From NCBI GenBank assembly GCA_027698105.1, contig JAQERH010000015.1, positions 1 to 64,000 of the forward strand: a DNA stretch of 64,000 nucleotides, in the 5' to 3' direction. Each line of letters starts with the position of its first letter. The stretch's first letter is position 1. A model generated the notes under the pieces. That model was not told where the DNA came from. It did no database searches and saw only the letters and a list, made by a program, of their open reading frames with translations. Of this stretch, positions 8,366 through 64,000 are shown one piece after another. The position numbers and the translations under genes were made by a program. The stretch is from Lachnospiraceae bacterium AM93-12TA. Lineage in GTDB: Bacteria; Bacillota; Clostridia; Lachnospirales; Lachnospiraceae.

Positions 8366-8383
8366 TTCGGTAATTCTACCTCC

Positions 8384-10093
8384 TTACTGGGCAAAATCCC
8401 ATTCCCAGATATCACAGAAAATATTAAATGTATATGGATCAAAGTTCTCCAGCTTCGGGTTGCACATGATCTCGCGATCCTGGGCATAGAGGAAAATCAT
8501 CGGCACATCTTCGTTGATCTGTTTTGCCACATTCAGATAGTACTCTTTTCGCTCTTCCTGATTAGTAGTCTTCATGCCCTTTTCAATATTTTCATCTACC
8601 AGATCATTTTTGTAGGCGCCAAAGTTAAAGCTTCCCACTCCCGGCTCATCAGAAGCGGAATCGGAATGCCACCAGCCATACGGATTCGGATCATCGGAGA
8701 AATAGCAGTTTAAAGCATACATTTCAAAGTTGTGATTATAAATACAATCATCAGCCACTACGCTGTCCTCCTCAATGGAAACCTCCACATCGATCCCCAC
8801 CTCAGCCAGACACTCTTTTGCATAGAGTACTGCATTTTCTCTTGTTTTAGAATCATTGGAGCAGCGGATGGTAAACTGAAGCTTCTCGCCATCTGCATTC
8901 TCCCGCACTCCGTCTCCATCTGTATCCGTCCATCCAGACGCCTCCAGAAGCTCCTTGGATTTTTCCGGATTGTAAGCGTAGTTATTTAACTCTCCTTCTG
9001 CCGGACTTGCCCAGGAACCTGGCAGGAACGGGGAATCCAGAAGCTTTCCTCTTCCCTCTACGATGGTATCCAGAATCAGAGCACGGTCAATGGCATACAG
9101 CATAGCCTGTCTTAAATTCTTATCCTGGAATACCGGACGGCGCAGGTTAAAGGAAATGTACTGATACATATTGTCAGGAATGGAATATTTGGCAAATCCC
9201 TGGGCCTCCAGCTCCTCTACCTCGCTGCTTCTCAGTTCCTTTACATCCACAATGTCAATATTTCCGCTGACCAGCTCTGCTGAGATGGCATCCTGGTTTA
9301 CTACCTTTAAAATAAAGTTATCAATCTTGGGAGCGCCCTCAAAAAATTCATCGTGGGCTTCCAGGGAAACATACTGTCCCGGCTCAAACTTTGTCACCTT
9401 ATAAGGGCCGCAGCCAATCGGATAGTTCAGAAGCTCTGTCTGCTTCTCCCACTCCTCCTGGGGAATCTCACTCCAGATATGTTCCGGCATGATGCCGTAG
9501 GTTCCAAAATCTGTGAGGAACGGGGCATAGGGCTCTGTCAGCTCCAGTCTCAGTACGTTTCCATCCAGAACAGTTACGCCGCTGATGGAATCTGCCTGTC
9601 CATTTTTAAATTCCTCAAATCCTTTCAGAGAAGAAACCTTATCTGAATCCGAACTGCTCTTTGCAGTCTGTTCCAGTGTAAAAATCAGATCATCCATAGT
9701 AAAATCTTCACCATCCTGCCATTTCACATCCTGGCGGATTTTAAAATCAATGGTTTTCTGATCTTCAGAAACAGTGTAGCTCTCCGCCAGATACGGCTTT
9801 AAGCTTCCGTCTGAATCAAAGGTTAAAAGAGAAGCATAGATTAATTTCTCAAGAGCTGTATCGCTTCCCATATAGGAAAGAATCGGTAAAAAGGTTCCCA
9901 CCGGAGCTGTAGGGGTGCCATACACAACTGTATCCTTTTTCTCCCCTTCTGTCTCCTGTCCCCCTGTGGTTTCTGCCTGTGACGCTCCCTTTGAAGTCTC
10001 TGCCGGTGTGTCTGTCTTCTGTCCAACGCTGCAGCCTGTCATCATGCAGGCAGCCAGCCCTGCGGCCAGAATACGTGCAAATTTCTTTTTCAT
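8384..10093 (-). CDS. Peptide/nickel-type solute-binding lipoprotein (SBP_bac_5)
   Basis: A 569 aa extracellular binding protein of the OppA/DppA/NikA fold. The chosen ATG at 10093 gives MKKKFARILAAGLAACMMTGCSVG, a lipoprotein signal peptide with the lipidated cysteine at about residue 22. An acidic, Thr/Glu-rich linker and then the SBP_bac_5 body follow (VSEDQKTIDFKIRQDVKWQDGE and a FTMDDLIFTLE-like segment). The ligand is not predictable: the family binds peptides, nickel chelates, opines and sugars. The in-frame upstream extension is an A-rich leader without RBS support. A leader of about 110 nt rich in A/T separates it from the DUF169 gene. Confidence 0.92.
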   Translation of the reverse strand: MKKKFARILAAGLAACMMTGCSVGQKTDTPAETSKGASQAETTGGQETEGEKKDTVVYGTPTAPVGTFLPILSYMGSDTALEKLIYASLLTFDSDGSLKPYLAESYTVSEDQKTIDFKIRQDVKWQDGEDFTMDDLIFTLEQTAKSSSDSDKVSSLKGFEEFKNGQADSISGVTVLDGNVLRLELTEPYAPFLTDFGTYGIMPEHIWSEIPQEEWEKQTELLNYPIGCGPYKVTKFEPGQYVSLEAHDEFFEGAPKIDNFILKVVNQDAISAELVSGNIDIVDVKELRSSEVEELEAQGFAKYSIPDNMYQYISFNLRRPVFQDKNLRQAMLYAIDRALILDTIVEGRGKLLDSPFLPGSWASPAEGELNNYAYNPEKSKELLEASGWTDTDGDGVRENADGEKLQFTIRCSNDSKTRENAVLYAKECLAEVGIDVEVSIEEDSVVADDCIYNHNFEMYALNCYFSDDPNPYGWWHSDSASDEPGVGSFNFGAYKNDLVDENIEKGMKTTNQEERKEYYLNVAKQINEDVPMIFLYAQDREIMCNPKLENFDPYTFNIFCDIWEWDFAQ

Positions 10094-10204
10094 TGTCCTC
10101 TTCCTTTCGTTGATTTTATTTATTTTGTTTTGTTTATTATGTTTTTTTATTTTATTTGTTTTATTTATACATATTTTTATAAGCTGCCCGGATTTCACAA
10201 AGTT

Positions 10205-11023
10205 CTAGTCGTTGCCTGACTGCTTATACAGTTCCTCTGGATACTTCTTTTCCTTGGCGTAGCTCATGTACACCTTTCCGAATTCTATTTCAAATCCCAG
10301 CTCATCCGGCGTTTCCAGACGCTCAGACAGTGCCTGCTTCTCTTTATCTGACATAGCAGGATTCACGGTTTTTAAGACTCCCTCTGCCACATCTTTAAAC
10401 AGATGAATCGGCATACCTGCTCCGATTTCTCCATCCTCTGCGCTCGTATTAGTTCTGGCTCCCAGACACAGCATAGACACATTCAGATCATTTTTCATGT
10501 ACGGTCTGGCTACCAGATCGGCACAGATTCCCTGATTTCCAATCATGCCAATATTCTTTGCCATACCGTGATGCCATGTGTAGCCCTGTACCAGGCGCAT
10601 CATCTGCCAGCCATTGCATAACAGCATAACCACATCTGCATCCTCCATCTCCTCCAGAGGACCTGTCATGACACCGTAAATTCTCTGATCCACGAAGCAA
10701 AGATCCTGCTGCACCTGTCTGGCAATGGCCGCGTCTTCATACAATCTCAAAGTAGAAAACTGTTTCCCTGACCACACATAATTGGAAACCTTTTTCATGC
10801 CCAGCATTTCCGGGCCGCCCTGACATCCGAAGGTGTCAGCCTTTCCCTTCATAATCTTTCCTTCCATTGCTCTGGCAGTCAGCGCACAGAAGCATCCGCC
10901 TGCTTTCGGCTCAGGCACATCCAGATCCTCATACTCCTCTTTCAGGAAAATAAATTTGATTCCAACTACCTGCCTGGAAAGTCCCAGAGCCTTACTGAAA
11001 CGTTTTATCAGCTGCTTTTCCAT
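10205..11023 (-). CDS. DUF169 family protein, first gene of the peptide-transporter operon
   Basis: A 272 aa protein of the DUF169 family (uncharacterised). Conserved segments include GGCFCALTARAMEGK with two cysteines, TFGCQGGPEMLG and NGWQMMRLVQGYTWHHG. There are no membrane segments or signal peptide, so it is likely cytosolic. The ATG at 11023 is preceded by AGGAAAGG at 6 nt. It is the first gene behind the 11093-11121 promoter and is followed by the ABC importer, so it is presumably made together with it. A role in sensing or handling the imported compound is inference only. Confidence 0.85.
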   Translation of the reverse strand: MEKQLIKRFSKALGLSRQVVGIKFIFLKEEYEDLDVPEPKAGGCFCALTARAMEGKIMKGKADTFGCQGGPEMLGMKKVSNYVWSGKQFSTLRLYEDAAIARQVQQDLCFVDQRIYGVMTGPLEEMEDADVVMLLCNGWQMMRLVQGYTWHHGMAKNIGMIGNQGICADLVARPYMKNDLNVSMLCLGARTNTSAEDGEIGAGMPIHLFKDVAEGVLKTVNPAMSDKEKQALSERLETPDELGFEIEFGKVYMSYAKEKKYPEELYKQSGND

Positions 11024-51171: not shown

Positions 51172-51645
51172 TTACCGGAAAATCTCAGGATATTCCTGTT
51201 TAAGAAATGCCAGGAAGGCCTCACAGCCTTCCACAATATCATCGTAGGTCAGGTCAAAATTGCCTGTATACCAGGGATCTGCGATATCTCTGGGATTCGA
51301 TGAAAAATCTAACAGCCGGTGCATCTTCCCCTCCGGGTCGCCGCCGGCAATCCGGCGCATATTAGAAAGATTTCGCTCCTCCATTCCCAGAAGATAATCG
51401 TAGTCCTCATAGTCCTGCCGCTTCATCTGAACCGCATATTTTCCAGCTGTGGAAATACCGCAGGCTTTAAGCTTCTCCCTGGTTCCCCGGTGAACCGGAT
51501 TTCCAAGCTCCTCCGCGCTGGTAGCAGCGGAGGCAATATAAAACTTTGAGGCCAGGCCGCGTCTGGCTGCCATGTCCTTCAGGATAAACTCTGCCATGGG
51601 AGAACGGCAGATGTTGCCCAGGCACAAAAAAAGTACCTTAATCAT
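51172..51645 (-). CDS. Low-molecular-weight protein tyrosine phosphatase
   Basis: A 157 aa phosphatase with the C-x5-R loop CLGNICRSPMAE (nucleophile C8, C13 and R14) and the catalytic aspartate in DIADPWYTGNFDLTY. The family dephosphorylates tyrosine on proteins and sometimes arginine. The mobile element's integrase end begins immediately upstream of its start codon, so its native promoter may have been displaced. Confidence 0.94.
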   Translation of the reverse strand: MIKVLFLCLGNICRSPMAEFILKDMAARRGLASKFYIASAATSAEELGNPVHRGTREKLKACGISTAGKYAVQMKRQDYEDYDYLLGMEERNLSNMRRIAGGDPEGKMHRLLDFSSNPRDIADPWYTGNFDLTYDDIVEGCEAFLAFLKQEYPEIFR

Positions 51646-51824: not shown

Positions 51825-53021
51825 TTACCCGAATCTTCTCAAGTTTTCCTGCTTTGTCTGTCCACCGCTGAAAGCTACAATCTGCGCCATGGATTCTTCA
51901 GCTTTTTCGTAGCTGTTATGGGTGTAAACATTCAAAGTGACGCTGGCATCAGAATGCCCCATCAGATACTGCAGGCTTTTTAAATCCATACCTGCGTTTG
52001 CCATGTTTGTACAAAATGTGTGTCGGAATACATGAGGTGTGATACGTGGAAGCGGAATGATATTTTCTTCATTGTACTTCTCGCACAGCCTCTGCACTAC
52101 TTTCTGGACGTGCATGGCTACCTTTGGATTACCATTCTTGTCCAGTAAAATAAATCCGGCGTATCCGTCTATCATGACTTCCTTTTTCTGTTTCTTTCGG
52201 TTGGAAAGAATGTTGTAGAAACTCTCATAGACTTCATCGCTCATTGGTATGTAGCGACAGCCACATTCCGTTTTTGTTTTCTCAATATAGCGTTTTCCAT
52301 CCTGTGTTCTGACCAGCTGATGATCCACACGGATTCTTCTGCGGTCAAAATCCAGATCTGCAATTGTCAGTCCGCAAAGCTCACTGATTCGCATTCCTGT
52401 TCCAAGCAGTATCTTGATTTCATCCAGATATCTGCAGAAGTACTTGTCATTCTTTGTGAACTCCAGAAACTGCTCCTGCTGCTTTGGGGACAGTGCAACT
52501 CGTTTCTGTGTGTTGTTCGGGATAATATCCAAGCGGAACTCAAAAGGATTCCTGCGGATAATATCCTCGGTGTAAGCCATCTGAAAGGCCGGTTTTACCA
52601 CACCACGGATACTTGCAATGGTGCTGTAGGAATAACCGTCATCATAAAGCTTGATAAACCACAGCTTTGCATCTGACATTTTGATGTCACGAATAATTCT
52701 CTGACCGAAAGGCTCTTTCTTCACAACACTCATCACAAACTTGTATCCTGTGGTTGTATTGTAGCGGACACCACGCTTCAGGCTGATGTAACGCTCCAGC
52801 AACTGAATCACTGTGATTTCGCCTCCGGCATAGTCAATCCCTTCGTGACGCAGCAATTTGATTTCATCTTCTTTCTGACGAAGCTTCATCAAATCCATGT
52901 CATAGATGGAACGACGCTTTTTATTGGCATCTGTGTAACGGAATTCATACATTCCGTTTTTTCTTTGGCTCTCTCCTGTACGTAAAATACGTCCTTTGTT
53001 ATCTCTTCTTTTTTCAGACAT
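51825..53021 (-). CDS. int: Tyrosine recombinase/integrase, Tn916 type
   Basis: A 398 aa integrase that inserts and excises the element. It has an N-terminal arm-binding domain (SEKRRDNKGRILRTGESQRK), a SAM-like core-binding domain and the catalytic domain with R211 (GTGMRISEL), a Lys around 250, H330 and R333 (HVFRHTF), H356 and nucleophile Y366 (NVYTH). The residues are complete, so it is probably active. The ATG at 53021 has AAAGGAG 7 nt upstream; an open extension upstream covers the xis-int hairpin and is unlikely to be translated. It is the outermost gene, as usual for the family. Confidence 0.95.
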   Translation of the reverse strand: MSEKRRDNKGRILRTGESQRKNGMYEFRYTDANKKRRSIYDMDLMKLRQKEDEIKLLRHEGIDYAGGEITVIQLLERYISLKRGVRYNTTTGYKFVMSVVKKEPFGQRIIRDIKMSDAKLWFIKLYDDGYSYSTIASIRGVVKPAFQMAYTEDIIRRNPFEFRLDIIPNNTQKRVALSPKQQEQFLEFTKNDKYFCRYLDEIKILLGTGMRISELCGLTIADLDFDRRRIRVDHQLVRTQDGKRYIEKTKTECGCRYIPMSDEVYESFYNILSNRKKQKKEVMIDGYAGFILLDKNGNPKVAMHVQKVVQRLCEKYNEENIIPLPRITPHVFRHTFCTNMANAGMDLKSLQYLMGHSDASVTLNVYTHNSYEKAEESMAQIVAFSGGQTKQENLRRFG

Positions 53022-53046
53022 ATTCAATCTCCTTTCTGATATGAAA

Positions 53047-53119
53047 AGAGCCCTGATATGACGTACATGCAACGAACGAACCATTTCGCCGCATTCCTAT
53101 TTTATCATATCAAGGCTCT
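53047..53119 (-). other. Hairpin between xis and int
   Basis: Arms AGAGCC-c-TGATATGA (53047-53061) and TCATATCA-a-GGCTCT (53105-53119) enclose a 43-nt loop. On the minus strand the distal arm is followed by TTTT and then the int RBS. It may attenuate int expression from the xis transcript. Confidence 0.55.
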
Positions 53120-53153: not shown

Positions 53154-53348
53154 TTAAATGGAGTAACACTGTTCTGTGAATTTATCCAGCTGTTTTCTTT
53201 TAATCAATCTCTTTGTTCCAACCCACAGCACGAAATCACATCTGTCATTGTTGGTAATTTCCCTTAATTTATTGATACCGATACCGGAATAAGCAGCTGC
53301 TTCTTCCAAAGTCAGATTTGTTTTTTCCCAAATAGGAACTTCTTTCAT
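53154..53348 (-). CDS. xis: Excisionase, Tn916 Xis-like
   Basis: A 64 aa protein closely matching the Tn916 Xis pattern: MKEVPIWEKTNLTLEEAAAY with a winged-helix followed by LWVGTKRLIKRKQLDKF. It binds element ends and directs the integrase towards excision. It sits directly upstream of int, as in Tn916-like elements. Confidence 0.92.
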   Translation of the reverse strand: MKEVPIWEKTNLTLEEAAAYSGIGINKLREITNNDRCDFVLWVGTKRLIKRKQLDKFTEQCYSI

Positions 53349-53404: not shown

Positions 53405-55297
53405 CTATAGGCTTTTTGCCGTTTCGTCCTGCCGCTTCAGCCAGATCCACCAGTCTTTGCCTCGTCTTTCGCTTTCTAATTTATCTTTCATGGAATTTAT
53501 CGCTAATCGTACTGTTCTTTCCGATATTCCTCGCTCCATGGCTTCTTTATTGATTTCCGCTACCGAAACTTCTCTGCCATCAGAGAGAAATTCATAAATC
53601 AGCTTTACCGCCTGTTCCTGCTTCAGCTCTGTTCTCGTTCCTTCGCCGCCGGCAAGCAAGTCTTCCGCACTGATGTCATAAGCACCAATCCAGCGGAAAC
53701 CTTTCTGGTCGCCCAGAGAAAAAGCCAATGCCTGTCCCGGTGGAGCCAGTGAACTTTTCTCGTGGACAATCACTCGTGTGGTAGGATCATCTTTGACCTT
53801 GCCAACAAATAAAATGCTTCGTACCACTGCGGCAATATCGATAGAACCAAGACCACGATAGGTGCTTTGTGTGCCGGATGCTTTATTCAGATGACCAATC
53901 ATTACGATGGCACAGCCAGTAGATTGGGCAATATCAGCCAGTTTGCGAAACACCGGTCTTACTTCATTAGCTCGGTTCATGTCCACATTGGCTCCAAGAA
54001 ATGCCTGCAGCGGGTCGATGACCATAAGCTTCGCATTGTTTTCTCTGATCGCCTTTTCAATGCGGTCATCGGCCAAAGTCAGCGGGTTTTCTGCGTCATC
54101 AATAACCAACACTCGCTGCAAGTCTGCACCTGATGAAACCAATCGTGGTTTTACTGTGTCACCCAGTCCGTCTTCTGCTGTCTGGAAAATCATATTAAAT
54201 GGTTCAAAAGGTTCCATATCTGGCAGAAACTTTTGATTGGTGCAAGCCGCCGCCAGCTGCATTGCGAAAAATGTTTTTCCTTCTCCGGGATTTCCCTGCA
54301 CAATGGTTAATTTCCCGAATGGAATATATGGGTACCACAACCAGTCCACTTCTGTCTGTTCCACATCGTTCATGCAAATCATAGGAACGGATTTTAGCGG
54401 GTTCTTTGCTTTTCTCACTCCGATTGTCACATAATCATCAGTTGGTAAGCCGTTTCGTTCATTAATCAGATCTTCATTCCAGTCCTTTGCCTGTGGAAGA
54501 AATCTATAAACTGCCTTTTCTTTAGGAATCAATTCTGCCAATTTCTCTGCGGCATTGTTACCTGCTTCGTCATTGTCTGTGGCAATATAAATGCTTTCAA
54601 TATTCTTGCGTTCAGAAAGAAAACGCTCCAATGCTTTCGGTGAAACACCACCGAGAGATAGATAACTGTGTTCTCTCCACCCAGCCGGATATAAGGCAAT
54701 ATGGGATAACAAATCAATCGGTGCTTCAAACACAAACAGTTCATTCCCTTTCCCTCTGTAACAAAATCCATAGGATTTATCAGAACCTGTCACGTCCATG
54801 CGAAACTTATCTGCTGTTCCTCTACAATGTGCGTATCTTGGAATACCATTGATATCTTTCCCCACAAACACAACATTGTGGTGTTTCGCATCTTCATAAA
54901 TCAGACCGTCTGCAATAAATTCTTCAACCAAATCTTTTGGAAGTTTTCGTTCTTCTGTCAGATACTTGATAATTCTATCGTTGGATTCACAGCGAGGCGG
55001 AAGCCTGAATTCTGCCTTTGGTGCCGGCTCCGCAGCAATTTCTATTGCTTCTTCTCCAATCAGCATCTGCATAGCTTCCGGAAAAGTTTTGTCGTAAAAC
55101 TCCATCACAAAGTCGATAGGATAGCCGCCTTTGCTTTGGCTGTGACGGAACCACTTGTTGCCTTTTACCGTAAGACTATTGTGGTTCTTCCAGCGATATT
55201 CTCTCCCGCTTTTAACCAGTACCTCACCCTGTGAACGGAGAAACTGTTCCAGGTTCACCTGATTTGCTCTGTCAATTTGCTCTTGTGTATAACTCAT
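53405..55297 (-). CDS. Primase-helicase replication protein (DUF3991/TOPRIM plus RepA-like AAA)
   Basis: A 630 aa fusion protein. Residues about 1-75 form a DUF3991/CHC2-like domain (EYRWKNHNSLTVKGNKWFRH, zinc ligands degenerate). The TOPRIM region (about 165-250) has FEAPIDLLS and ATDNDEAGN. The RecA/AAA_25 helicase domain (about 310-520) has Walker A GNPGEGKT and Walker B-like KLMVIDPLQAFLG. The C-terminal 70 residues are winged-helix-like. It probably primes and unwinds element DNA after excision or transfer. It lies 15 nt after the relaxase gene. Confidence 0.85.
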   Translation of the reverse strand: MSYTQEQIDRANQVNLEQFLRSQGEVLVKSGREYRWKNHNSLTVKGNKWFRHSQSKGGYPIDFVMEFYDKTFPEAMQMLIGEEAIEIAAEPAPKAEFRLPPRCESNDRIIKYLTEERKLPKDLVEEFIADGLIYEDAKHHNVVFVGKDINGIPRYAHCRGTADKFRMDVTGSDKSYGFCYRGKGNELFVFEAPIDLLSHIALYPAGWREHSYLSLGGVSPKALERFLSERKNIESIYIATDNDEAGNNAAEKLAELIPKEKAVYRFLPQAKDWNEDLINERNGLPTDDYVTIGVRKAKNPLKSVPMICMNDVEQTEVDWLWYPYIPFGKLTIVQGNPGEGKTFFAMQLAAACTNQKFLPDMEPFEPFNMIFQTAEDGLGDTVKPRLVSSGADLQRVLVIDDAENPLTLADDRIEKAIRENNAKLMVIDPLQAFLGANVDMNRANEVRPVFRKLADIAQSTGCAIVMIGHLNKASGTQSTYRGLGSIDIAAVVRSILFVGKVKDDPTTRVIVHEKSSLAPPGQALAFSLGDQKGFRWIGAYDISAEDLLAGGEGTRTELKQEQAVKLIYEFLSDGREVSVAEINKEAMERGISERTVRLAINSMKDKLESERRGKDWWIWLKRQDETAKSL

Positions 55298-55312: not shown

Positions 55313-56809
55313 TTACAATGTGATTTCTTTTGTTTTATCGGTATGCAGTATTTCGGGACGAGTTTCTCTCATCACTTTATCTACATCACCCTCAATCTGA
55401 TATAACAACGTCAGATCCTTTTGCATAAGTTTGTATTTTTGATATTCATTTTCTCTCTGTGCCAACAGTTCAGAAAATTCTTTCTGCCATACACTCATCG
55501 GAAAAGGCTCTTTTTCAAAACCTTTCTCTTTCAATTTTCGTTTTACCATGTAGAACCTGCGAAGCTCGCTTTCGTGTTCGGCCTTGTCTTTTTCCTTGGT
55601 TTTGGTAAAACGATATTTTTCTTTTTTAAGTTCATCAGCAACCGGCTTCAATTCAGAAAAAGTTTTGGCATCTTCCATCAGCTGCTGAAGTTCTTTCAGT
55701 CGTGTCTGTTTCTGATTCATGGAAGATTTACTGGCTTCCACTTTTTCGTCTACAGAAGAAAGATATTGTTCAAAATCGCTGAGCGTCAGCACCCCTCGTT
55801 GTTTCAGATAATTACACTCATCCATAAAACGCTTCAGGTTATTTTTCTTGGCTTTCGTCTTTCCTTTTGTATAGGTCATTGCAGTTTGGTTGCGCAGAGT
55901 ATGGGCATCGCTGAGCAGCTGTACAAGATAAATCTCCTGCGGCTCTCTCAGAATTTCTTTTGCTTCCGCAATCCATTCTTTCAGCGCCGCAATGGTGGCT
56001 CGCATACTGCGAATCATACGATTGGTGGCTTTAATCCAGCGGTTCAGTTCTCCCTTTTCAGTGCGAATGCCTTTCTTCTCCATTTTGCGAATCTGCGGTC
56101 CCTCGTGAACTGTAGGAATTAAATCCAAACCCTGATCTACATAAGAGCGATGGTCGATGCGACACTCCAGACCTTTTTCTCTGAATTTATCATTGACCAT
56201 ATCTGCCCAGGCTTCACGCCACATATCCAGCGTTTCCGGTCTTCCCCAATTTGTGGTCGGGACAGCATCGAACTCCCACTGACCATTTTCCTTTTTGATA
56301 CGGTTGCCGTTCTCATCCAAATGATACTCTCGGCGTTGCTTTGCTCCCCATGTTCCATCGACATTCAGAGGACGAATGGGAACCAAAACATGAAAGTGGG
56401 GATTTGGAATACCGCCCTCATCTCTATCCGGCTTGTGAACCGCAAGGTCAGCAATCATGCCATCAGAGACAAAGTATTTCTGAACAAATTCTCTTGCCAG
56501 TTCAATGTTTTCTTCCAAGGAAATTTCATTTTGCAGAGCCATGTCAAAGCTGTAAGCAAGCTGTGCATTGTAGTTCTTTTCTACCTGTTCCACCTCATTC
56601 CATAATGTTGATCTGTCAAAGAATCTTTTAGGTGCATACTCCGGCAGCATAATTTCTGAAAGAATCACGCCACCTTTCCTGGTGTAATCGTGAGTTTCAC
56701 CATCCCAGAGATTGTGTAGTTTTTCCCCTGCACGATATGCGGCACTGGCAACAGCAGTTCGTCCTTCGCTGCGTTTGATTTGAGTTACATGGAAATGATA
56801 TAAAGCCAT
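55313..56809 (-). CDS. mobL: MobA/MobL-family relaxase (MOBQ)
   Basis: A 498 aa relaxase. The N-terminal HUH domain has the likely nucleophile Y25 (ASAAYRAGEKL) and the metal-binding histidines H125, H138 and H140 (HKP ... NPHFHVLVP). The C-terminal half is long, charged and coiled-coil-rich. It nicks oriT and pilots the strand into a recipient through a helper channel. The start codon overlaps the DUF3847 stop (TAATG). The matching oriT lies about 480 nt upstream (57260-57320). Confidence 0.93.
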   Translation of the reverse strand: MALYHFHVTQIKRSEGRTAVASAAYRAGEKLHNLWDGETHDYTRKGGVILSEIMLPEYAPKRFFDRSTLWNEVEQVEKNYNAQLAYSFDMALQNEISLEENIELAREFVQKYFVSDGMIADLAVHKPDRDEGGIPNPHFHVLVPIRPLNVDGTWGAKQRREYHLDENGNRIKKENGQWEFDAVPTTNWGRPETLDMWREAWADMVNDKFREKGLECRIDHRSYVDQGLDLIPTVHEGPQIRKMEKKGIRTEKGELNRWIKATNRMIRSMRATIAALKEWIAEAKEILREPQEIYLVQLLSDAHTLRNQTAMTYTKGKTKAKKNNLKRFMDECNYLKQRGVLTLSDFEQYLSSVDEKVEASKSSMNQKQTRLKELQQLMEDAKTFSELKPVADELKKEKYRFTKTKEKDKAEHESELRRFYMVKRKLKEKGFEKEPFPMSVWQKEFSELLAQRENEYQKYKLMQKDLTLLYQIEGDVDKVMRETRPEILHTDKTKEITL

Positions 56810-57111
56810 TAACCCTCACCTCCCGTTTCATGTCTCTGCATAGCTTGTGACACTAACTCCTGCACTGCTGGTAAAGCAAAGACCTGTTCCATCAATGAGT
56901 AGAACTCTACTCTCGTCAGGGAATCAGCTTCTTTGGAAATGCTTTGGATTGCACCACCCATATTGCAAAGATGGTGAGTGCGCTGGCGGTCAGCTTTCTT
57001 CTCAAGATGCTTCTTGCGATTTTCCAAAAGCTGAATTCTGTGTTGATACTGCTGAACCTTTAATTCAGCTTCTTCTTTTTGTCTCAAAATGGATTCTCTT
57101 CTACTTTCCAT
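56809..57111 (-). CDS. DUF3847 mobilization accessory protein
   Basis: A 100 aa protein with a long N-terminal coiled coil (SILRQKEEAELKVQQYQHRI) and the DUF3847 motif RQRTHHLCNMGGAIQSI. It is commonly encoded just before MobA/MobL relaxases and is probably an auxiliary relaxosome protein. The ATG at 57111 has AGGAGG 8 nt upstream; an upstream in-frame ATG overlaps that RBS. It is coupled to the relaxase by a TAATG overlap. Confidence 0.85.
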   Translation of the reverse strand: MESRRESILRQKEEAELKVQQYQHRIQLLENRKKHLEKKADRQRTHHLCNMGGAIQSISKEADSLTRVEFYSLMEQVFALPAVQELVSQAMQRHETGGEG

Positions 57112-57200
57112 TTTTCTTATCCTCCTATGAGTATTCATCCTTGCCACAAGCAAGGTATGTAAAATGAGATAGGCGTCAGCCGCAAGAGTTATCTCTGGAC

Positions 57201-57320
57201 CGGAATGCAATTCCGCAATATGTGAATGTGTTCAGACACAGGAGCATCTACCTTCGGAGAACGCACATACCGTAATGAAATAACCGGTATAGAAGTGCGC
57301 CCTTAGTTCCTAAGGGATTT
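57201..57320. other. oriT: Origin of transfer (oriT), RSF1010/MOBQ type
   Basis: The inverted repeat ATACCG (57267-57272) / CGGTAT (57285-57290) is followed by GAAGTGCGCCCTT (57292-57304), which contains the MOBQ nick-region core AAGTGCGCCCT. Next come CCCTTAG-TTC-CTAAGGG (57301-57317) and, upstream, CGGAAT-GCA-ATTCCG (57201-57215). Order and spacing match IncQ-like oriTs, and it lies upstream of the relaxase gene. The remaining gap to 57460 holds a 19-bp imperfect palindrome (57383-57401) that may be an operator. Confidence 0.85.
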
Positions 57321-57465
57321 TAGCTTGTTTCAGCTTTTGAGAAAATTGTATCTTGTTCCCAGCTCGTTTTTTATTGCCTTGCATTGACAGTTACTATCAA
57401 TATCATTGAAAGTTTTGTAGAAGCTGTTCTCTACACTTAAAATTTTAATTTAAGAAACAAAAAAA

Positions 57466-57511
57466 TCTATGGACTGATGGGCCCTGTAAACATGCCCTAT
57501 GAGTCCATAGA
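57466..57511 (-). terminator. Terminator, distal of a tandem pair after the XRE gene
   Basis: A perfect 10-bp stem TCTATGGACT / AGTCCATAGA with inner GGGC/GCCC pairing, followed on the minus strand by seven T. Confidence 0.9.
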
Positions 57512-57520
57512 CTTATAAAA

Positions 57521-57550
57521 AACACCGAAGTATCTTGCTACTCCGATGTT
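57521..57550 (-). terminator. Terminator, proximal of a tandem pair after the XRE gene
   Basis: A 12-bp stem with two G-U pairs and loop GCAAGA on the minus strand, followed by TTTTTTATA, 10 nt past the XRE stop codon. Confidence 0.9.
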
Positions 57551-57560
57551 TTCAAATCTA

Positions 57561-57899
57561 CTATTCTAATTCACTTTTCATTTTCAAAAGCTCTTCTTTT
57601 TTCGCCAAGAGTTTTTCTATTGTACTGTCGATTTGTGTGATTGCATCATCTATTTTCTCATTTAAAGAGCCACCCATGTCCTCCGGATGAATACCTAAAA
57701 CAAGATAATTGGTTGATACTCCGAAGAATTCTGAAAGTTCAAGCAGAAAATCAATTGATGGCCTGCGCAGTCCAGACTCAATCTTGGCGATTGTATTTTG
57801 ACTGACATTTAGTTTTTCAGCAAGCTGTTCCTGGGTAAGCCCTCGTTCTTTTCGGAACTGCTGTATACGCTTTCCGCATTCTTTTAAATCGTGTCTCAT
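57561..57899 (-). CDS. XRE-family transcriptional regulator
   Basis: A 112 aa protein. The N-terminal Cro/CI helix-turn-helix reads LTQEQLAEKLNVSQNTIAKIESG, followed by a short helical tail (KIDDAITQIDSTIEKLLAKKE) that could dimerise. Its start codon overlaps the DUF2971 stop (ATGA), so it is translated with that protein, as in antitoxin-like or repressor pairs. It probably represses the operon through the inverted repeats upstream of the AlbA-like gene; this is inference. Confidence 0.9.
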   Translation of the reverse strand: MRHDLKECGKRIQQFRKERGLTQEQLAEKLNVSQNTIAKIESGLRRPSIDFLLELSEFFGVSTNYLVLGIHPEDMGGSLNEKIDDAITQIDSTIEKLLAKKEELLKMKSELE

Positions 57900-59545
57900 A
57901 ATGCTTTTCCTTCATCTACATCCAAATACCATTTCATTGAATCATGCTTATCTACCAATTCCAAAATATTCGATGTTAAACCCTTTACAGTTTGATAATT
58001 ATGCATTGACATTTTATTCGCCAATACCATATTCACTGAATTTTCGTTGATCGACTCAGCTCCAACCTTTGCTTGCATTATAAACGTATCTATTTGTTCT
58101 ATTGCAGTGCCTATCTGTGCATTTTCCTGAATTTCTACGGTTTGAATGTTCTTATTCCTACAATAGCGATTAAAAGAACACTTCATGAAATACGCATCGC
58201 TCAAGAAATCCAATGTAGATGTTAAAAAGTTTACCAACGCATCGACTTCTAATTTTCCGTTCTCTATTCCTTCGACTACTGTTTTAGAATTTTCCGAACA
58301 CTTCTGACTAAGTACACCAGTGTGCTCCGACAGAAGAGTAATATATTCCAGTTCTCGTTCTTCATCAAAAACAAAATCTTCTGAAGTAAGTTTTTGTCTC
58401 GTTAAAACATAGTCTCCTGGATTTAATGATAGCTGATAACATTCGATTCCTTTCTCTTGGCAGATATCCCAAATCAAGCATTTGCACATTTCATCAAGAT
58501 TAAGTCCAAGAGTAATCGATTTTATAAACGGTGTTTCAATAAATATCGGAGTATACGGTTTTTCTCCTGTATTGATGATTCTCCATTCTTCCTCATATGC
58601 CCAACATTTATTTTTGGCCAACATGTAAGAAAAAATAGCTCCCATATCCACTTCTTCCGTCTTTAAACTACCACTTTCATCTGTTTCAAATTTAGTTATT
58701 CCCAAATCCTTGAGCATCAGTGTTGGACGTTGTTCACAATATTCAACAGGATACATGAAACCTATAAACCTTTTCATTTCCTGAAAATCATATTCAACAC
58801 AAATACCCGAATACGAATTTGCATAATGGGACCACATCAACTGATTATCCCAACCACTTGCACTAAAGCATACTACTGTTAACTTAGAAAGGAAATCCTG
58901 AAGGAACGGAATATATGTTTTATCACGAACTTCTACCGTTACTTTCTCTAATTCCATTAAAGCTTCTTCCATGTTTAAAGCATCTACCAATGTCTTTTCG
59001 TCAATATCTACATTTTTATAGTCTTTTATAAGCATTGCAAAGATTAAAAATGTTGATTTGTCAAAATACCTTTTAACGTCAGCTGGACTTTTCTTATAAA
59101 GCCTTTCTACGTTTTTCATAATAAACAGTGACATATTTGTAACAGAAATATGTTCTATTACACTTTGTACAAAAATGTATTTTTTAAGTTTATTAAGCGC
59201 ATCAATAAACTCTACTGTCTTTCCAATAAGTCTGTATTTCAAAAGAGATTTGATGACCAACTTAAGATTTTCATCCAAAGAATCCACAGCTTGATCAAGT
59301 GCTAAATCTATGCACTCATCATAAATTTTTTCAGAAGAAAATCCTACCATAGAATCAAACGGATCATTCATCTGTAAAGGTGTTCGTGCATATACAACTC
59401 CGTGACGAATATTTTCTATATCGTATATAGTAGCTGCGTCTCTTCGACAAGCTCTATACTGATAAAACAAATTTCCTGCTTTATTTATTTTTTCTTTAAT
59501 CTTCGAAAAAGTTAAATCTTCTGACTTAATCACGTTATAGCTCAC
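57896..59545 (-). CDS. DUF2971-containing protein
   Basis: A 549 aa protein. DUF2971 features occupy about residues 25-345: LFYQYRAC and QMNDPFDSMVGF near the start, VVCFSASGWDNQLMWSHYANSYSGICVEYDF in the middle and NKCWAYEEEWRIINTGE later (conserved E/W/R). The C-terminal 200 residues are helical and unrecognised. Members occur scattered in accessory islands and no activity is established. The GTG at 59545 has AGGAGAGG upstream, 38 nt after the AlbA-like gene. AT-rich codon use differs from the chromosomal genes, which suggests transfer. Confidence 0.8.
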   Translation of the reverse strand: MSYNVIKSEDLTFSKIKEKINKAGNLFYQYRACRRDAATIYDIENIRHGVVYARTPLQMNDPFDSMVGFSSEKIYDECIDLALDQAVDSLDENLKLVIKSLLKYRLIGKTVEFIDALNKLKKYIFVQSVIEHISVTNMSLFIMKNVERLYKKSPADVKRYFDKSTFLIFAMLIKDYKNVDIDEKTLVDALNMEEALMELEKVTVEVRDKTYIPFLQDFLSKLTVVCFSASGWDNQLMWSHYANSYSGICVEYDFQEMKRFIGFMYPVEYCEQRPTLMLKDLGITKFETDESGSLKTEEVDMGAIFSYMLAKNKCWAYEEEWRIINTGEKPYTPIFIETPFIKSITLGLNLDEMCKCLIWDICQEKGIECYQLSLNPGDYVLTRQKLTSEDFVFDEERELEYITLLSEHTGVLSQKCSENSKTVVEGIENGKLEVDALVNFLTSTLDFLSDAYFMKCSFNRYCRNKNIQTVEIQENAQIGTAIEQIDTFIMQAKVGAESINENSVNMVLANKMSMHNYQTVKGLTSNILELVDKHDSMKWYLDVDEGKAL

Positions 59546-59583
59546 TTCCTCTCCTGTAAGTTTAGCGTCCTCTATATTTTCAA

Positions 59584-60837
59584 TTACTTAATTATATATT
59601 TCGTACCTCTGCCTTTTCCCTCAATTGCAATCACACCTTTTTCGCCCATATCTTTCAGCAACTTCGTTGTCTTTGATTTGCCAAAAGGTATATATGGTGC
59701 AATTTCACTTATTGGTTTCAACATAGTCTTACTTAAGAGTTTATAAATCACTTTTTCGTCTTTGGTTAAATTAACATCCTTTTCAAACAACGGAAGCACA
59801 ATTTTTATAGAATTCTCTGATACTTCAAAGTCCGGTTTCATCAGACCTTCTGCATACAGTTGTTTTATTCTTGTAATTCCTGTTCCAAATATCTCGACAA
59901 ATCCTAATCTATAAAACACATTAGCAAGGTTTCTATTTCTCAAAACGGAAAGTTTACCTGACAAATATTCTTCTGCTGTTATTCCGGATGGCAATCCACC
60001 AGGAGATACAACTTCTATTCTGTCATCAAACATGGAAACTCTGATGTGTGAATCCACATCCCACACCCTATGAATCAGAGCATTCGCAATTGCTTCCCTG
60101 AAGGCTGCTTCCGGTATTTTCTCCATCTTCTTTCTATCAGCCCCCTGTATTACTTCATAATGATAATAGTCTCTAAATACAGCAAGTGCCTTTTCATATG
60201 CATCCAAAACAGATGTGTTTTCAACAGTTGTTCTCTTTTGAATAATGCTGATGTTTTCTCCGAACTTAACAATATCAATGCCTGGAAAATGATTTTTATC
60301 CGCCAAAAGTCCCGCTGCATTATTAAAACCATTTACATTGTCATATAAGTTCAATGTTCTCAATGTATCCTGATTAAAAGTTTCAATCTGAATACTTTCT
60401 TTCAGCTTACGCTGTAAAATTTCGAAAGACAGATTCTGATCTTTACAAGGTAATTCTTCAAATCTAATATTTTTCCCGTCTAATACAAGTCTTGTAAATT
60501 CCAGAGTATCTACCTCTATCGTCGCTGTATCATTTCGTTTGTATGCTTTTGATTTATACAAGTACGGCTTCTGAAGACCGCTGGTTACAGTGAGCTTTAT
60601 CGTCTGATCATTATTCTGTATTTCAAGTGTATAGTTTGGCTGCGGTGAAATACTGTCATTGATTTTATTTTCGATATCCAGACACGCCTGCTTTACATCC
60701 GGCAAACCTTTCACATTTCCATCATCATCTACTCCAAAAAGAATTGTTCCACCATCGTAATTCGAAAAGGCACTGACTGTTTTTAAAAAAGTATTCGTAA
60801 TCGTTTCCTTGAATTCTAATATTCTCGTTTCACGCAT
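59584..60837 (-). CDS. AlbA_2 domain / HATPase_c_4 (divergent-AAA) protein with C-terminal winged helix
   Basis: A 417 aa protein. The N-terminal AlbA_2 (Schlafen-like divergent AAA) domain spans about 5-110 (RILEFKET, TVSAFSNYDGGTILFGVDDDG). The HATPase_c_4 domain is around 255-330 (EAAFREAIANALIHRVWDVDS, IEVVSPGGLPSGITAEEYL, FGTGITRIKQL), and a winged helix occupies about 355-417 (PFGKSKTTKLLKDMG). Such proteins are annotated as ATP-dependent transcriptional regulators and also occur in defence islands. The ATG at 60837 follows AAAGGAT. It is first in a three-gene operon with DUF2971 and XRE. Confidence 0.87.
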   Translation of the reverse strand: MRETRILEFKETITNTFLKTVSAFSNYDGGTILFGVDDDGNVKGLPDVKQACLDIENKINDSISPQPNYTLEIQNNDQTIKLTVTSGLQKPYLYKSKAYKRNDTATIEVDTLEFTRLVLDGKNIRFEELPCKDQNLSFEILQRKLKESIQIETFNQDTLRTLNLYDNVNGFNNAAGLLADKNHFPGIDIVKFGENISIIQKRTTVENTSVLDAYEKALAVFRDYYHYEVIQGADRKKMEKIPEAAFREAIANALIHRVWDVDSHIRVSMFDDRIEVVSPGGLPSGITAEEYLSGKLSVLRNRNLANVFYRLGFVEIFGTGITRIKQLYAEGLMKPDFEVSENSIKIVLPLFEKDVNLTKDEKVIYKLLSKTMLKPISEIAPYIPFGKSKTTKLLKDMGEKGVIAIEGKGRGTKYIIK

Positions 60838-60870
60838 AATAACCGTATCCTTTCCAACTTTATTGATTAT

Positions 60871-60899
60871 ATTATATGCATAAATACGCAAAAAATCAA
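60871..60899 (-). promoter_or_regulatory. Sigma-A promoter of the AlbA-DUF2971-XRE operon
   Basis: TTGATT (60899-60894) and perfect TATAAT (60876-60871) with a 17-nt spacer on the minus strand, 34 nt before the start codon. The -35 box lies in an arm of the 60887-60926 inverted repeats. Confidence 0.82.
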
Positions 60900-60926
60900 T
60901 CGTAATTTTTTGCGATTGATTTTTTG
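60887..60926. promoter_or_regulatory. Two overlapping, mutually exclusive inverted repeats at the operon promoter
   Basis: CGCAAAAAAT (60887-60896) pairs with ATTTTTTGCG (60905-60914). The alternative is CAAAAAATCAATCG (60889-60902) with CGATTGATTTTTTG (60913-60926). Both are perfect. The 9-mer CAATCGTAA (60897-60905) in the centre recurs at 61094-61120 in both orientations. This is a likely operator for a regulator encoded by the operon. Confidence 0.75.
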
Positions 60927-61016: not shown

Positions 61017-61051
61017 ATTTCATTTTAACTTTTGAAAAGTTAAAATGAAAT
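61017..61051. repeat. 35-bp near-perfect palindrome
   Basis: Two 17-nt arms (left arm ATTTCATTTTAACTTTT) that are exact complements, separated by a single G. It is AT-rich and lies about 180 bp upstream of the AlbA-like gene. There is no T run expected of a terminator on the minus strand. Confidence 0.9.
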
Positions 61052-61227: not shown

Positions 61228-61264
61228 TTATCTCCATCATTTACATTACAAATGATGGAGATAA
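61228..61264. repeat. 15-bp perfect inverted repeat
   Basis: TTATCTCCATCATTT (61228-61242) and its exact complement (61250-61264) with 7-nt loop ACATTAC. Confidence 0.9.
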
Positions 61265-61327: not shown

Positions 61328-61368
61328 CCGCTTTCAAAACTTTAAAAATTTTTCATTTTTGAAAGCGG
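61328..61368. repeat. 12-bp perfect inverted repeat
   Basis: CCGCTTTCAAAA (61328-61339) and TTTTGAAAGCGG (61357-61368) with a 17-nt AT-rich loop. No credible gene lies anywhere in 60838-61721. Confidence 0.85.
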
Positions 61369-61413
61369 TGGATTTTACCTTAATTGAATAGGCACGAACT
61401 CTGAACCATACAA

Positions 61414-61452
61414 TTAGGAGGCGTGTGCTCTATCCAACTGAGCTACTGAGAC
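61414..61452 (-). pseudogene. tRNA-Arg(CCU) 5' half, truncated at the anticodon loop
   Basis: On the minus strand a perfect tRNA 5' half: acceptor GTCTCAG, D-stem GCTC/GAGC with loop AGTTGGATA, anticodon stem CACGC and loop CTCCTAA (anticodon CCT). Sequence after the loop (TTGTATGG...) cannot pair with the anticodon or acceptor stems, so the tRNA is cut exactly at the loop. The same 7-mer TTAGGAG (plus strand) recurs at 61538-61544. It looks like a remnant of site-specific integration in a tRNA gene. Confidence 0.8.
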
Positions 61453-61673
61453 ATGGCTGGTTTTATGACTAAGCCCGAAGAAATTCGAACTTGAATCCTG
61501 TATGAAGTTTTTCCAAGGTGACCGTTGTAACGCAACCTTAGGAGCCGGTCGTTGTTTCCTTATAAGGCGCTGCGTGACATCTTTGTGCTCCGTGGATTGT
61601 TGCTGTATCATTGGTGATCCACACATTCCTTGGATGATTCATAACACAAAAACACTTCCATTAAAAATATTAA

Positions 61674-61721: not shown

Positions 61722-64000
61722 TTATTTCATAACCTTGTTCAGCAAGGACTGGTAACTGTCAACCACATCGTAGATGACATTGCCGTTGCTGATTGCCTTG
61801 AAATGCTCTCTTGCACAGTGAATCTTGGATTCTTCAATCAATCTCAACTGCATAGAGTTCATAGAACCCTTTGTTTCTGCCACGAAATAAATGTGCTTGA
61901 TATTACCTTCATAGAATGCAATTGCCCAGTCAGGGTTGTAGTGGCCAACAGGTGTAGAGATGTAGAAACCGTCAGGCAGTTTCACATACACAGCAACATC
62001 ACTGCTGACATCCAGATTTTCAGCAAATGCTTTCTCGTTTGTAGAGTCATATACAATGTGGTCATAAAGATGCTTGTTTGCCTTGATAGCATTCACACCT
62101 AATTTTCCCTTGATGGTCGGAGCAGTAAATACATCGGTATCATACTTTTCGTCCAGAACATCGTATGTAATATGCTCAATGATTGCGGTCGCTTTTTCAT
62201 CGTTGATAAGCGAACCTGCTTTAATGATAAATTCCTCAGGATTGTCCTTGAACTGGTCAAAGACAAACTTTTCAATTCCAGTAAGAATCTGAATAATTGC
62301 TTTTCTTGTAAGACCAGTAGCATCTACGAGTTTACCAACCAAGTCGTACTTAACACTGGTATTGACTGCGATTTTATTGCCCACACCGTAAGATGCAGAT
62401 GCTTCCTTAACGAAAGATGCACCAGAAGCAAGTGCTTCCTTGGATGCGATATTATCCATTCGTCCAGTCTCAACCTTGAAATAAATCTTGGAAACACGGA
62501 GTTTTGCATTCAAAGATGCAATGGACTTTCTGACAAGTTCATCCGTGTCAAAGTCAACCACATAAACGGACTTGGAATTGATGCGATTCCAAAGTGCCTT
62601 GAATTCAGGCATTGCCAGTTTGTCGGGTTTGACTTGGAGTTCAATATTATTGCTACGAGCATTTTCAGGCTGCATTGCCTTACCATCATAGATGGTATCA
62701 ATGATGCCAAGAATGGATTCGGTAGAACCTGCCACTTCATCGGTGAGTTTGATTTCACCGTTTGCCTTGTCCTCGTAGTATTTATCTGTAAGTGTGCCTT
62801 GCTTATCAATGTAACCTTCCATACGTAGACCAACATAGATTTCTCTTGCAACATCATCCGTAATAACATCGGTGTTACCCTGTGCATCTGTGATGGTCTT
62901 GCCCATAAACAGTTCAGGTGTGACTGCTTTCGGACGGTTCGCAACTGCATCTGCCATTTCAGTCTGCAATCCCTTTGCGAAACTGTCATAACTTTCGCTT
63001 GCGATAACGGTAAGCACATTGACATTGTGAACATCGTTGCCAAGAGCATTGACATCCATTCGTTCACCGTCCTGGTTAACACAGAGACGGAGACCACGAC
63101 CGACTTCCTGTCTCTTACGAACATCACTACTGCTTTGCTTCAAAGTACAAATCTGGAACACATTAGGATTGTCCCAACCTTCACGAAGTGCAGAGTGAGA
63201 GAAGATGAAACGAACAGGGGACTTCTTCGGATTTCTGTCCAGAAGGAGTTCTTTGTTCTTCATAATCAAGTCGTAGGCATCAATATCGTCAGAAGAAGTT
63301 TCCTTCTTACCAACCTTGGAGTCAATCATCTTACCTTTCTTATCCACGGAGAAGTAACCTGCATGGGTTGAAGAAGGAGTGATCATATTGAGATACTTGA
63401 TATAGTCATCGTCACCAAGTTCCAACTGAATATTGCCAACGATGTCAGCATACTCTTCTTCAAACATATCGGCATAGATACCGTTGTATGCCTGACCTGC
63501 TTTATCGTACTGCTTGTACTTCACAACTTCGTCAATGAAGAACAGAGACAACACCTTAATGCCTTTATAGAAGAGTTCTCTTTCTCTCTGAATATGAGAG
63601 AGGATAGTTTCACGGATTTGGATACGGCGAAGTTGGTCTTCACTGACCTTACCGATAACATCACCTGCATAAATCTTGATACCGTTGATGAATTCCACGG
63701 AGTCATCACGACCGTCAATGGACTTAACAACGAAACCGTTCTTGTATTCATCCAGATAACCAGAGTTATCGTAAAGATTAAATCCGATGCCAACCTTCAT
63801 AGACTTCTTACGGATACCAGTTGCACCCTTGAAGTCGAACTGCAGTGTAGCAGTCGGGTCTGCTTTGGAAAGGTTCAGACCTTCCAAATACACATAACTT
63901 TCGGTGGCAGTGCTTCCAGTTTCAGTGATACCCTTAACAGCGATTTTCTTAACCAATCGCTTGTTGTATGCTTCCATAGCATCCAGACGGTAAATCATAT
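61722..64000 (-). CDS. res: Type III restriction endonuclease Res subunit, C-terminal part (runs off the window)
   Basis: About 760 residues of a type III Res helicase-nuclease are in view; the N-terminus with the ATP-binding motifs lies beyond the right edge. Helicase motifs V-VI are FIFSHSALREGWDNPNVFQIC and SDVRKRQEVGRGLRLCVN. The C-terminal PD-(D/E)XK nuclease is YNPDWAIAFYEG ... FVAETKGS. With a Mod methyltransferase it cuts unmodified DNA after ATP-driven translocation. mod would normally lie upstream, outside the window. Codon use looks less AT-rich than the neighbouring XRE/DUF2971 genes. Confidence 0.92.
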   Translation of the reverse strand, partial: MIYRLDAMEAYNKRLVKKIAVKGITETGSTATESYVYLEGLNLSKADPTATLQFDFKGATGIRKKSMKVGIGFNLYDNSGYLDEYKNGFVVKSIDGRDDSVEFINGIKIYAGDVIGKVSEDQLRRIQIRETILSHIQRERELFYKGIKVLSLFFIDEVVKYKQYDKAGQAYNGIYADMFEEEYADIVGNIQLELGDDDYIKYLNMITPSSTHAGYFSVDKKGKMIDSKVGKKETSSDDIDAYDLIMKNKELLLDRNPKKSPVRFIFSHSALREGWDNPNVFQICTLKQSSSDVRKRQEVGRGLRLCVNQDGERMDVNALGNDVHNVNVLTVIASESYDSFAKGLQTEMADAVANRPKAVTPELFMGKTITDAQGNTDVITDDVAREIYVGLRMEGYIDKQGTLTDKYYEDKANGEIKLTDEVAGSTESILGIIDTIYDGKAMQPENARSNNIELQVKPDKLAMPEFKALWNRINSKSVYVVDFDTDELVRKSIASLNAKLRVSKIYFKVETGRMDNIASKEALASGASFVKEASASYGVGNKIAVNTSVKYDLVGKLVDATGLTRKAIIQILTGIEKFVFDQFKDNPEEFIIKAGSLINDEKATAIIEHITYDVLDEKYDTDVFTAPTIKGKLGVNAIKANKHLYDHIVYDSTNEKAFAENLDVSSDVAVYVKLPDGFYISTPVGHYNPDWAIAFYEGNIKHIYFVAETKGSMNSMQLRLIEESKIHCAREHFKAISNGNVIYDVVDSYQSLLNKVMK

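Follow-up and report, generated by a model that had tools for sequence, protein, structure and literature searches.

Do three genes that lie head to tail in a mobile element form one system, or do they merely stand together? The question is raised by a 64,000-nucleotide (nt) stretch of Lachnospiraceae bacterium AM93-12TA (GCA_027698105.1, contig JAQERH010000015.1, positions 1 to 64,000; hereafter the window), in which three minus-strand open reading frames (ORFs) follow one another: an AlbA_2/HATPase_c_4 gene (AlbA; 59584..60837, 417 residues), a long DUF2971 gene (57896..59545), and a gene for an XRE/Cro-CI type regulator (57561..57899, 112 residues). A first-pass annotation had read them as one regulated antiphage or stress module. 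We instead estimate, at a probability of roughly 60%, that they are a stretch of defense cargo in an integrative mobilizable element (IME) located at the start of a low-molecular-weight protein tyrosine phosphatase (PTPase) gene and not a dedicated three-part system, with AlbA as a solo Schlafen, DUF2971 as a second, independent effector, and XRE as a local repressor.

When one genome per species was scanned, the DUF2971 alignment picked out 14 loci. One of them (L001), in the metagenome-assembled genome (MAG) UBA1702, here genome G001, belongs to the same element family and carries genes for AlbA, DUF2971, XRE, DUF3847, relaxase, replication protein, excisionase, and integrase in order. The 13 other long-DUF2971 loci had other neighbors, and AlbA was absent from the flanks covered in all of them (0/13); the region covered upstream of DUF2971 is short in L002, L005, and L008, and the sequence of L013 and L014 breaks off within the gene. 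At E <= 1e-80, 17 of 296 genomes of the G001 family contained AlbA relatives (19 places), as did 27 of 299 genomes (27 places) of the family to which the Roseburia MAG G004 belongs; viral contigs yielded one AlbA locus and no DUF2971 or relaxase relative. Both family scans, the viral-contig locus, and one weak relative together gave 47 AlbA places besides G001, and the DUF2971 profile detected DUF2971 beside AlbA in none of them within the flanks covered (0/47). Long flanks were available for 16 of the 27 Lachnospiraceae places, those of the rest and of the G001-family places being at most 1.5 kb, and four places (L024, L025, L030, and L031) show 64 to 312 nt downstream. Among the 296 genomes tested for both genes, 17 had AlbA, 25 had a Pfam DUF2971, and 3 had both (1.4 expected); adjacency was seen only in G001, the center genome, which had been chosen for having both. 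The first-pass annotation had proposed co-occurrence of the families across genomes as a test and had held that random neighbors would defeat its idea. No conserved linkage was found outside G001, and because the neighbors of AlbA and DUF2971 are not kept, the module idea fails on those terms. A conserved AlbA-DUF2971-XRE system was rejected on these counts.

In G001, an attachment scar (C22:8153) and an intact PTPase start (C22:32807) bound the sister element, which encodes (L133 9112-17327 and L001 510-6119) GajA (1e-233), GajB (2e-183), PDC-S72, a type I methyltransferase, specificity protein, and restriction enzyme, PDC-S06, AlbA, DUF2971, and XRE. Because this element packs defense genes between the scar and the PTPase gene, the earlier description of the genes as uncharacterized accessory cargo in a defense setting appears right, with Gabija, type I restriction-modification, and candidate genes in the sister element and a match of DUF2971 to the candidate defense model PDC-S31. 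The restriction cargo differs, being type I in the G001 copy and type III in the window copy. Synonymous divergence (dS) between the two copies was 0.12 for AlbA, 0.07 for DUF2971, 0.31 for XRE, 0.55 for DUF3847, 0.45 for the relaxase, 0.68 for the replication protein, 0.70 for the excisionase, and 0.18 for the integrase and was saturated for the PTPase; by these sequence distances, the two copies are mosaic. We also considered AlbA as a host gene into which the element had inserted, and dropped this idea, since its dS is close to that of the integrase, the PTPase is saturated, and the far attachment scar in G001 lies beyond the restriction genes.

Judging from its sequence, AlbA fits an effector in its own right, a bacterial Schlafen, better than a sensor that serves DUF2971. 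Its ORF is listed from TTG 60891, and the start is most likely ATG 60837, given a Shine-Dalgarno-like GGAAAGG and the many listed homologs of 417 residues. Pfam matches to SLFN_AlbA_2 (PF04326, 3.3e-19, 70 bits, cut-off 25.3) and HATPase_c_4 (PF13749, 4e-21, 75 bits, cut-off 26) give the order SLFN AlbA_2 and GHKL ATPase/minimal histidine kinase, which a C-terminal winged helix-turn-helix (wHTH)-like part follows. Compared with the PDB, a profile of 12 relatives matched Schlafen 12 (E 0.0014) and 3lmm (1e-16), and in a winged-helix test its positions 338-411 weakly matched MarR-type regulators (E 0.017-0.09). E3, E8, and D38 are invariant in the 12 aligned rows, some of which are 1 to 2 residues short at the start. 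These residues may correspond to the Schlafen RNase triad (two Glu, one Asp, as in SLFN13); the PDB alignment begins after E8, so that it does not cover their equivalence to SLFN13. AlbA also stands without DUF2971 in the 47 other places, within the flanks covered. The two genes are not equally common, since 7782 of 7996 scored candidates were AlbA homologs at E <= 1e-3 (the 120 among the matches listed were all at least 88% identical over the alignment) and 609 of 7998 were homologs of the long DUF2971 protein. A distant blastn search of plasmids found two records, one of them a Fusobacterium record matching AlbA DNA at 65%. In several genomes (L095, L100, and L103), the genes downstream of AlbA (MSMLMNTAEYLSIIENI...) look alike by eye, and we presume them to be YhcG-like.

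The promoter of AlbA carries a palindrome over its -35 element (60889..60926; core TCAATCGTA/TACGATTGA in close homologs) whose center lies some 70 nt upstream of the start codon; it is a probable operator. By a criterion of our own (score of at least 6 and center 60 to 80 nt from the start codon), it kept its register in 37 AlbA places, the window included, and fell outside in 7 (L016, L023, L030, L034, L081, L090, and L091), 44 of the 49 places counted being assessable. In 26 chosen sequences, 9 of 15 pairs changed on both sides, 92.6% of cells paired, and double-change cells numbered 29 versus 6.2 in shuffles, a signal that sliding of the partners abolished; these counts are inflated by kinship among the sequences, and the register was picked from the same sequences. 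This set came from 30 chosen loci, of which L107, L034, and L022 were dropped (start unaligned or palindrome judged out of register) along with L096, an identical row, and it leans towards palindromes because of the dropped rows. Template switching in replication can perfect palindromes without selection. In close AlbA relatives, the DNA conserved with the window extends from the palindrome to near the stop codon, and L017, L094, and L096-L098 additionally have upstream sequence in common among themselves. The simplest use of the palindrome would be that of a putative autoregulatory operator.

DUF2971, the likely effector in the earlier proposal, retains this likely role as an uncharacterized piece of cargo in a defense setting. 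It is listed with 549 residues, and its likely start is GTG 59533 (545 residues). It matched Pfam PF11185 (E 4e-10, 41 bits, cut-off 22) and, over residues 173-384, the PADLOC hidden Markov model (HMM) PDC-S31 (2.3e-42). No credible solved relative was found by sequence (best E 0.16-0.18), and a BFVD search gave nothing at E <= 0.001. Matches occurred in 82 plasmid and 2 phage records, all with less than 80% of the query covered; the 20 plasmid matches listed span about a third of it. In the literature searched, PDC-S31 is not named and DUF2971 is named in one paper; in PADLOC, DUF2971 is just a candidate. PMC11514479, in the part available, treats PDC genes in general. At one locus (L008, 1097-2738), the long gene lies in two overlapping frames, reflecting a frameshift or an assembly error.

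A first structural model, built from 21 close homologs, had a poor core (mean predicted confidence, pLDDT, of 65.7) and was superseded by one from a 97-row alignment. In the latter, the invariant core residues fall in a predicted ADP-ribosyltransferase (ART)-like domain that carries an insert and a C-terminal part, both helical. The comparison with known folds that had been suggested for this protein gave, with VIA-align, one ART-type match, 7yw4, whose C-terminal lobe we take to have the ART fold. No other ART was in that list, which means little because the list is dominated by matches to the C-terminal helices. ART catalytic residues are of the R-S-E or H-Y-E type; in the alignment, E318 and E320 are each present in 96 of 97 rows, and S or T stands at position 228 in 95. 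The DUF2971 profile did not match Tpt1, RES, or DarT, compared as small sets of 5, 9, and 1 sequences, and known ART families failed to find each other in the same comparison (Prob 0.3, 0.3, and 11). From the model, DUF2971 may belong to an uncharacterized family of ADP-ribosyltransferase-like enzymes.

An ART-like core invites another reading of the two downstream genes. XRE, which has an HTH_3 match at 1.2e-20, is likely a regulator, as had been proposed, and XRE proteins serve as antitoxins in RES-Xre systems. DUF2971 and XRE could thus be a toxin-antitoxin pair with an ART-fold toxin, AlbA being an upstream bystander that lends its promoter. The ATGA overlap between the two genes and the 7yw4 match fit such a pair, but with Pfam matches taken to E 0.1, no MbcA_ParS domain for XRE was among the 22 obtained, the toxin candidate matched DUF2971 alone and no RES domain, and the dS of XRE is well above that of DUF2971. 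Moreover, no XRE homolog lay directly downstream of DUF2971 in the 13 other long-DUF2971 loci (blastp, 1e-5; L013 and L014 end too early); in L003, a divergent gene upstream encodes an XRE-type helix-turn-helix, and L004, L010, and L011 have XRE-like genes 1.4 to 2 kb off. In two related elements (L153 and L155), no XRE homolog stands directly beside the relaxase gene. We consider such a pair unlikely. The original module, in which AlbA-HATPase senses infection, DUF2971 is the effector, and XRE is the repressor, draws on the tight codirectional layout with one promoter and terminators and on the AlbA-DUF2971 stretch having diverged least in two elements whose other parts separated earlier; set against the missing linkage and the genome overlap given above, it appears very improbable. 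Another possibility is that the locus has no role in defense, AlbA being an autoregulated transcription factor, DUF2971 an unrelated enzyme of stress physiology, and the genes passengers. AlbA contexts often look like ordinary chromosomal genes and PDC-S31 is only a candidate, and the neighbors of DUF2971 leave room for this possibility. In the 13 other long-DUF2971 loci, defense models at E <= 1e-50 matched 5 of 30 hand-picked neighbors and 0 of 20 hand-picked controls (PADLOC, p 0.07), with strong defense neighbors at 3 of the 13 loci (ThsA; AbiJ and PDC-S37; type II methyltransferase and restriction enzyme). At E <= 1e-5, the counts were 13/30, including a second DUF2971 gene, and 3/20 (p 0.06), with two of the three control matches themselves resembling mobile-element or restriction genes. 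The enrichment beside defense genes, which the first-pass annotation had proposed to score, therefore shows as a trend without significance, and the defense link of DUF2971 from its neighbors is suggestive only. We judge the absence of any defense role to be quite improbable. As a separate observation, L004 carries long and short DUF2971 genes near a ThsA protein gene that also matches TIR-like ThsB models (181-2106, 7992-9650, and 10008-11006).

Several points weigh against independent cargo with an ART-like effector. AlbA and DUF2971 occur together at low dS in both element copies, and a functional pairing would give the same picture, with n = 2. The DUF2971 profile re-finds 24 of 29 PF11185 loci, and very divergent short DUF2971 proteins may therefore have escaped. 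The defense-neighbor enrichment lacks significance with a small hand-picked control. The ART assignment comes from a single structural match, ranked 9th in a list of mostly helical ones, a Foldseek search of the same model gave nothing at E < 1, and R31, at the position expected of the classical ART arginine, is Arg in just 42 of 97 rows. A bolder version would make DUF2971 an undescribed family of ART-type immune effectors, here in an extended form whose helical parts serve sensing or oligomerization. The adjoining Schlafen palindrome, maintained by compensatory change among homologs as little as about 50% identical, would go beyond an operator sequence, with a DNA hairpin or cruciform possibly being read or copied in gene control or spread; we regard this version as tentative and rather doubtful.

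The defense cargo reading places the three genes in a mobilizable element next to a type III restriction gene, as had been described, and its parts are all on the minus strand of the window. The restriction gene (61722..63998; PADLOC REase_III, 1.1e-190) is cut by the window end. On the other side lie genes for a DUF3847 protein of the element backbone (56809..57210; Pfam), a MobA/MobL (MobQ) relaxase (55313..56809; PF03389, 5.7e-85; NF041496, 9e-77, over the cut-off), a primase/helicase-like replication protein with Toprim and AAA_25 domains (53405..55297; Pfam), a Tn916-type excisionase (53154..53348; PF09035, 4.7e-22), and a Tn916-type tyrosine integrase (51825..53084; PF00589, 7.4e-40; PF02920, 3e-19); integrase, excisionase, and relaxase are the parts that define an IME. 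A relaxase relative at E <= 1e-100 was present in 2 of 297 genomes of the order of G001. The integrase gene ends 179 nt before the gene at 51172..51645, which we take from its CxGNICRS motif to encode the low-molecular-weight PTPase and whose first codons are the likely attachment region. In 23 of 299 genomes, integrase relatives (E <= 1e-120, 51 to 64% identical; L110-L132) were found, and the PTPase-start motif (at most 4 substitutions) followed the integrase in 23/23, with little more of the PTPase gene than this motif in L114 and L121. On this sequence pattern, Tn916-type integrases appear to use the start of the PTPase gene repeatedly as an attachment region, a subject on which the literature searched contained no relevant publication. 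The motif was also present in 11 of 19 long-flank AlbA loci. The PTPase end is the one found in the window, where no second attachment repeat was detected, while the G001 element shows both ends. A start of DUF2971 within the attachment core was considered from the shared first codons MIK and dropped, as other DUF2971 homologs natively start with MIK. Separately, PTPase-start scars occur in tandem, like those of cis-mobilizable cassettes, in L096 (7137, 9262, and 10854), L092, and L133 (8153), and one scar pair in L096, 1.6 kb apart, encloses the AlbA gene only.

The layout of the three genes agrees with the first description. The ORF positions confirm three same-strand genes with 38 nt between AlbA and DUF2971 as listed (59545-57896) and an ATGA overlap between DUF2971 and XRE (57899-57561); the actual gap is probably 50 nt, because several DUF2971 homologs start at the residue encoded at 59533. 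A sigma-70-type promoter, TTGATT-17-TATAAT (60871..60899, minus strand, 10/12 consensus matches), lies upstream of AlbA. It shares the top score among 12 promoter-like sites in the region, which are not enriched (18.0 in shuffles); the call is supported not by site enrichment but by AlbA homologs, 24 of 27 of which have an exact TATAAT no more than 35 nt from the palindrome. Two intrinsic-terminator hairpins with U-runs lie 3' of XRE (57456..57560, minus strand), at 57456-57517 and 57518-57560 (-25.1 and -17.5 kcal/mol; fold z -5.7 and -7.1); a simple hairpin scan had missed both. The stretch is AT rich, with 34.3% GC versus 46.4% for the whole window. Between the type III restriction gene and AlbA lie three long inverted repeats (61017-61051, 61228-61264, and 61328-61368) and a minus-strand stretch (61395-61460) that by eye resembles a degenerate tRNA-Arg(CCT); neither ARAGORN nor Rfam called the latter, and the Rfam scan gave three hits, all subthreshold.

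From the sequences, domains, contexts, mosaicism, palindrome covariation, and model described above, we infer the following activities, triggers, and regulation. The three genes are probably cotranscribed, given their head-to-tail order behind the Schlafen promoter. AlbA, or another dimeric regulator, would repress its own gene through the conserved palindrome; on infection, the Schlafen would cut tRNA or rRNA through its RNase-type AlbA_2 domain; DUF2971 would act separately, on NAD+ or by modifying a target; and XRE would repress its own local expression. The locus is ordinary as a system, since the genes stacked here in a mobile element belong, independently of one another, to known or candidate defense families, and the neighborhood of two candidate antivirus genes and a small switch gene looks like a chance assembly. 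This resolves a loosely defined operon into single genes that can be tested. The DUF2971 core is the point worth following. Assigning its fold would provide DUF2971 with a chemistry open to test (NAD+ consumption or ADP-ribosylation). With its covarying palindrome, the solo Schlafen offers an uncomplicated system for how bacterial Schlafens stay silent, and the PTPase-start attachment arrays of Lachnospiraceae are a place to seek more defense cargo.

Compared with known systems, AlbA shares the order AlbA_2, HATPase_c_4, and C-terminal wHTH-like part with bacterial Schlafen RNases, which the available part of PMC12839542 widely links to BREX loci. The window AlbA, in contrast, is not beside recognized BREX genes and has a covarying promoter palindrome, of which the literature searched, as far as available, describes none. 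PDC-S31 is a single-gene DUF2971 candidate in PADLOC whose models span 208 to 273 residues, whereas the protein here has about 545, with a helical insert (71-219) and a helical C-terminal part (395-536). Tpt1/KptA, the tRNA 2'-phosphotransferase of 7yw4, is 17% identical to DUF2971, with no detectable profile similarity and other invariant residues. RES-Xre systems are alike in their XRE-type partner and possibly in an ART-type core, but differ in their RES and MbcA_ParS domains and in a pairing that is not kept here. The element itself, finally, resembles defense-carrying IMEs and cis-mobilizable attachment arrays in its Tn916-type integrase and excisionase, MobQ relaxase, defense cargo, and tandem attachment scars, and is set apart from them by an attachment region at the start of a low-molecular-weight PTPase gene.

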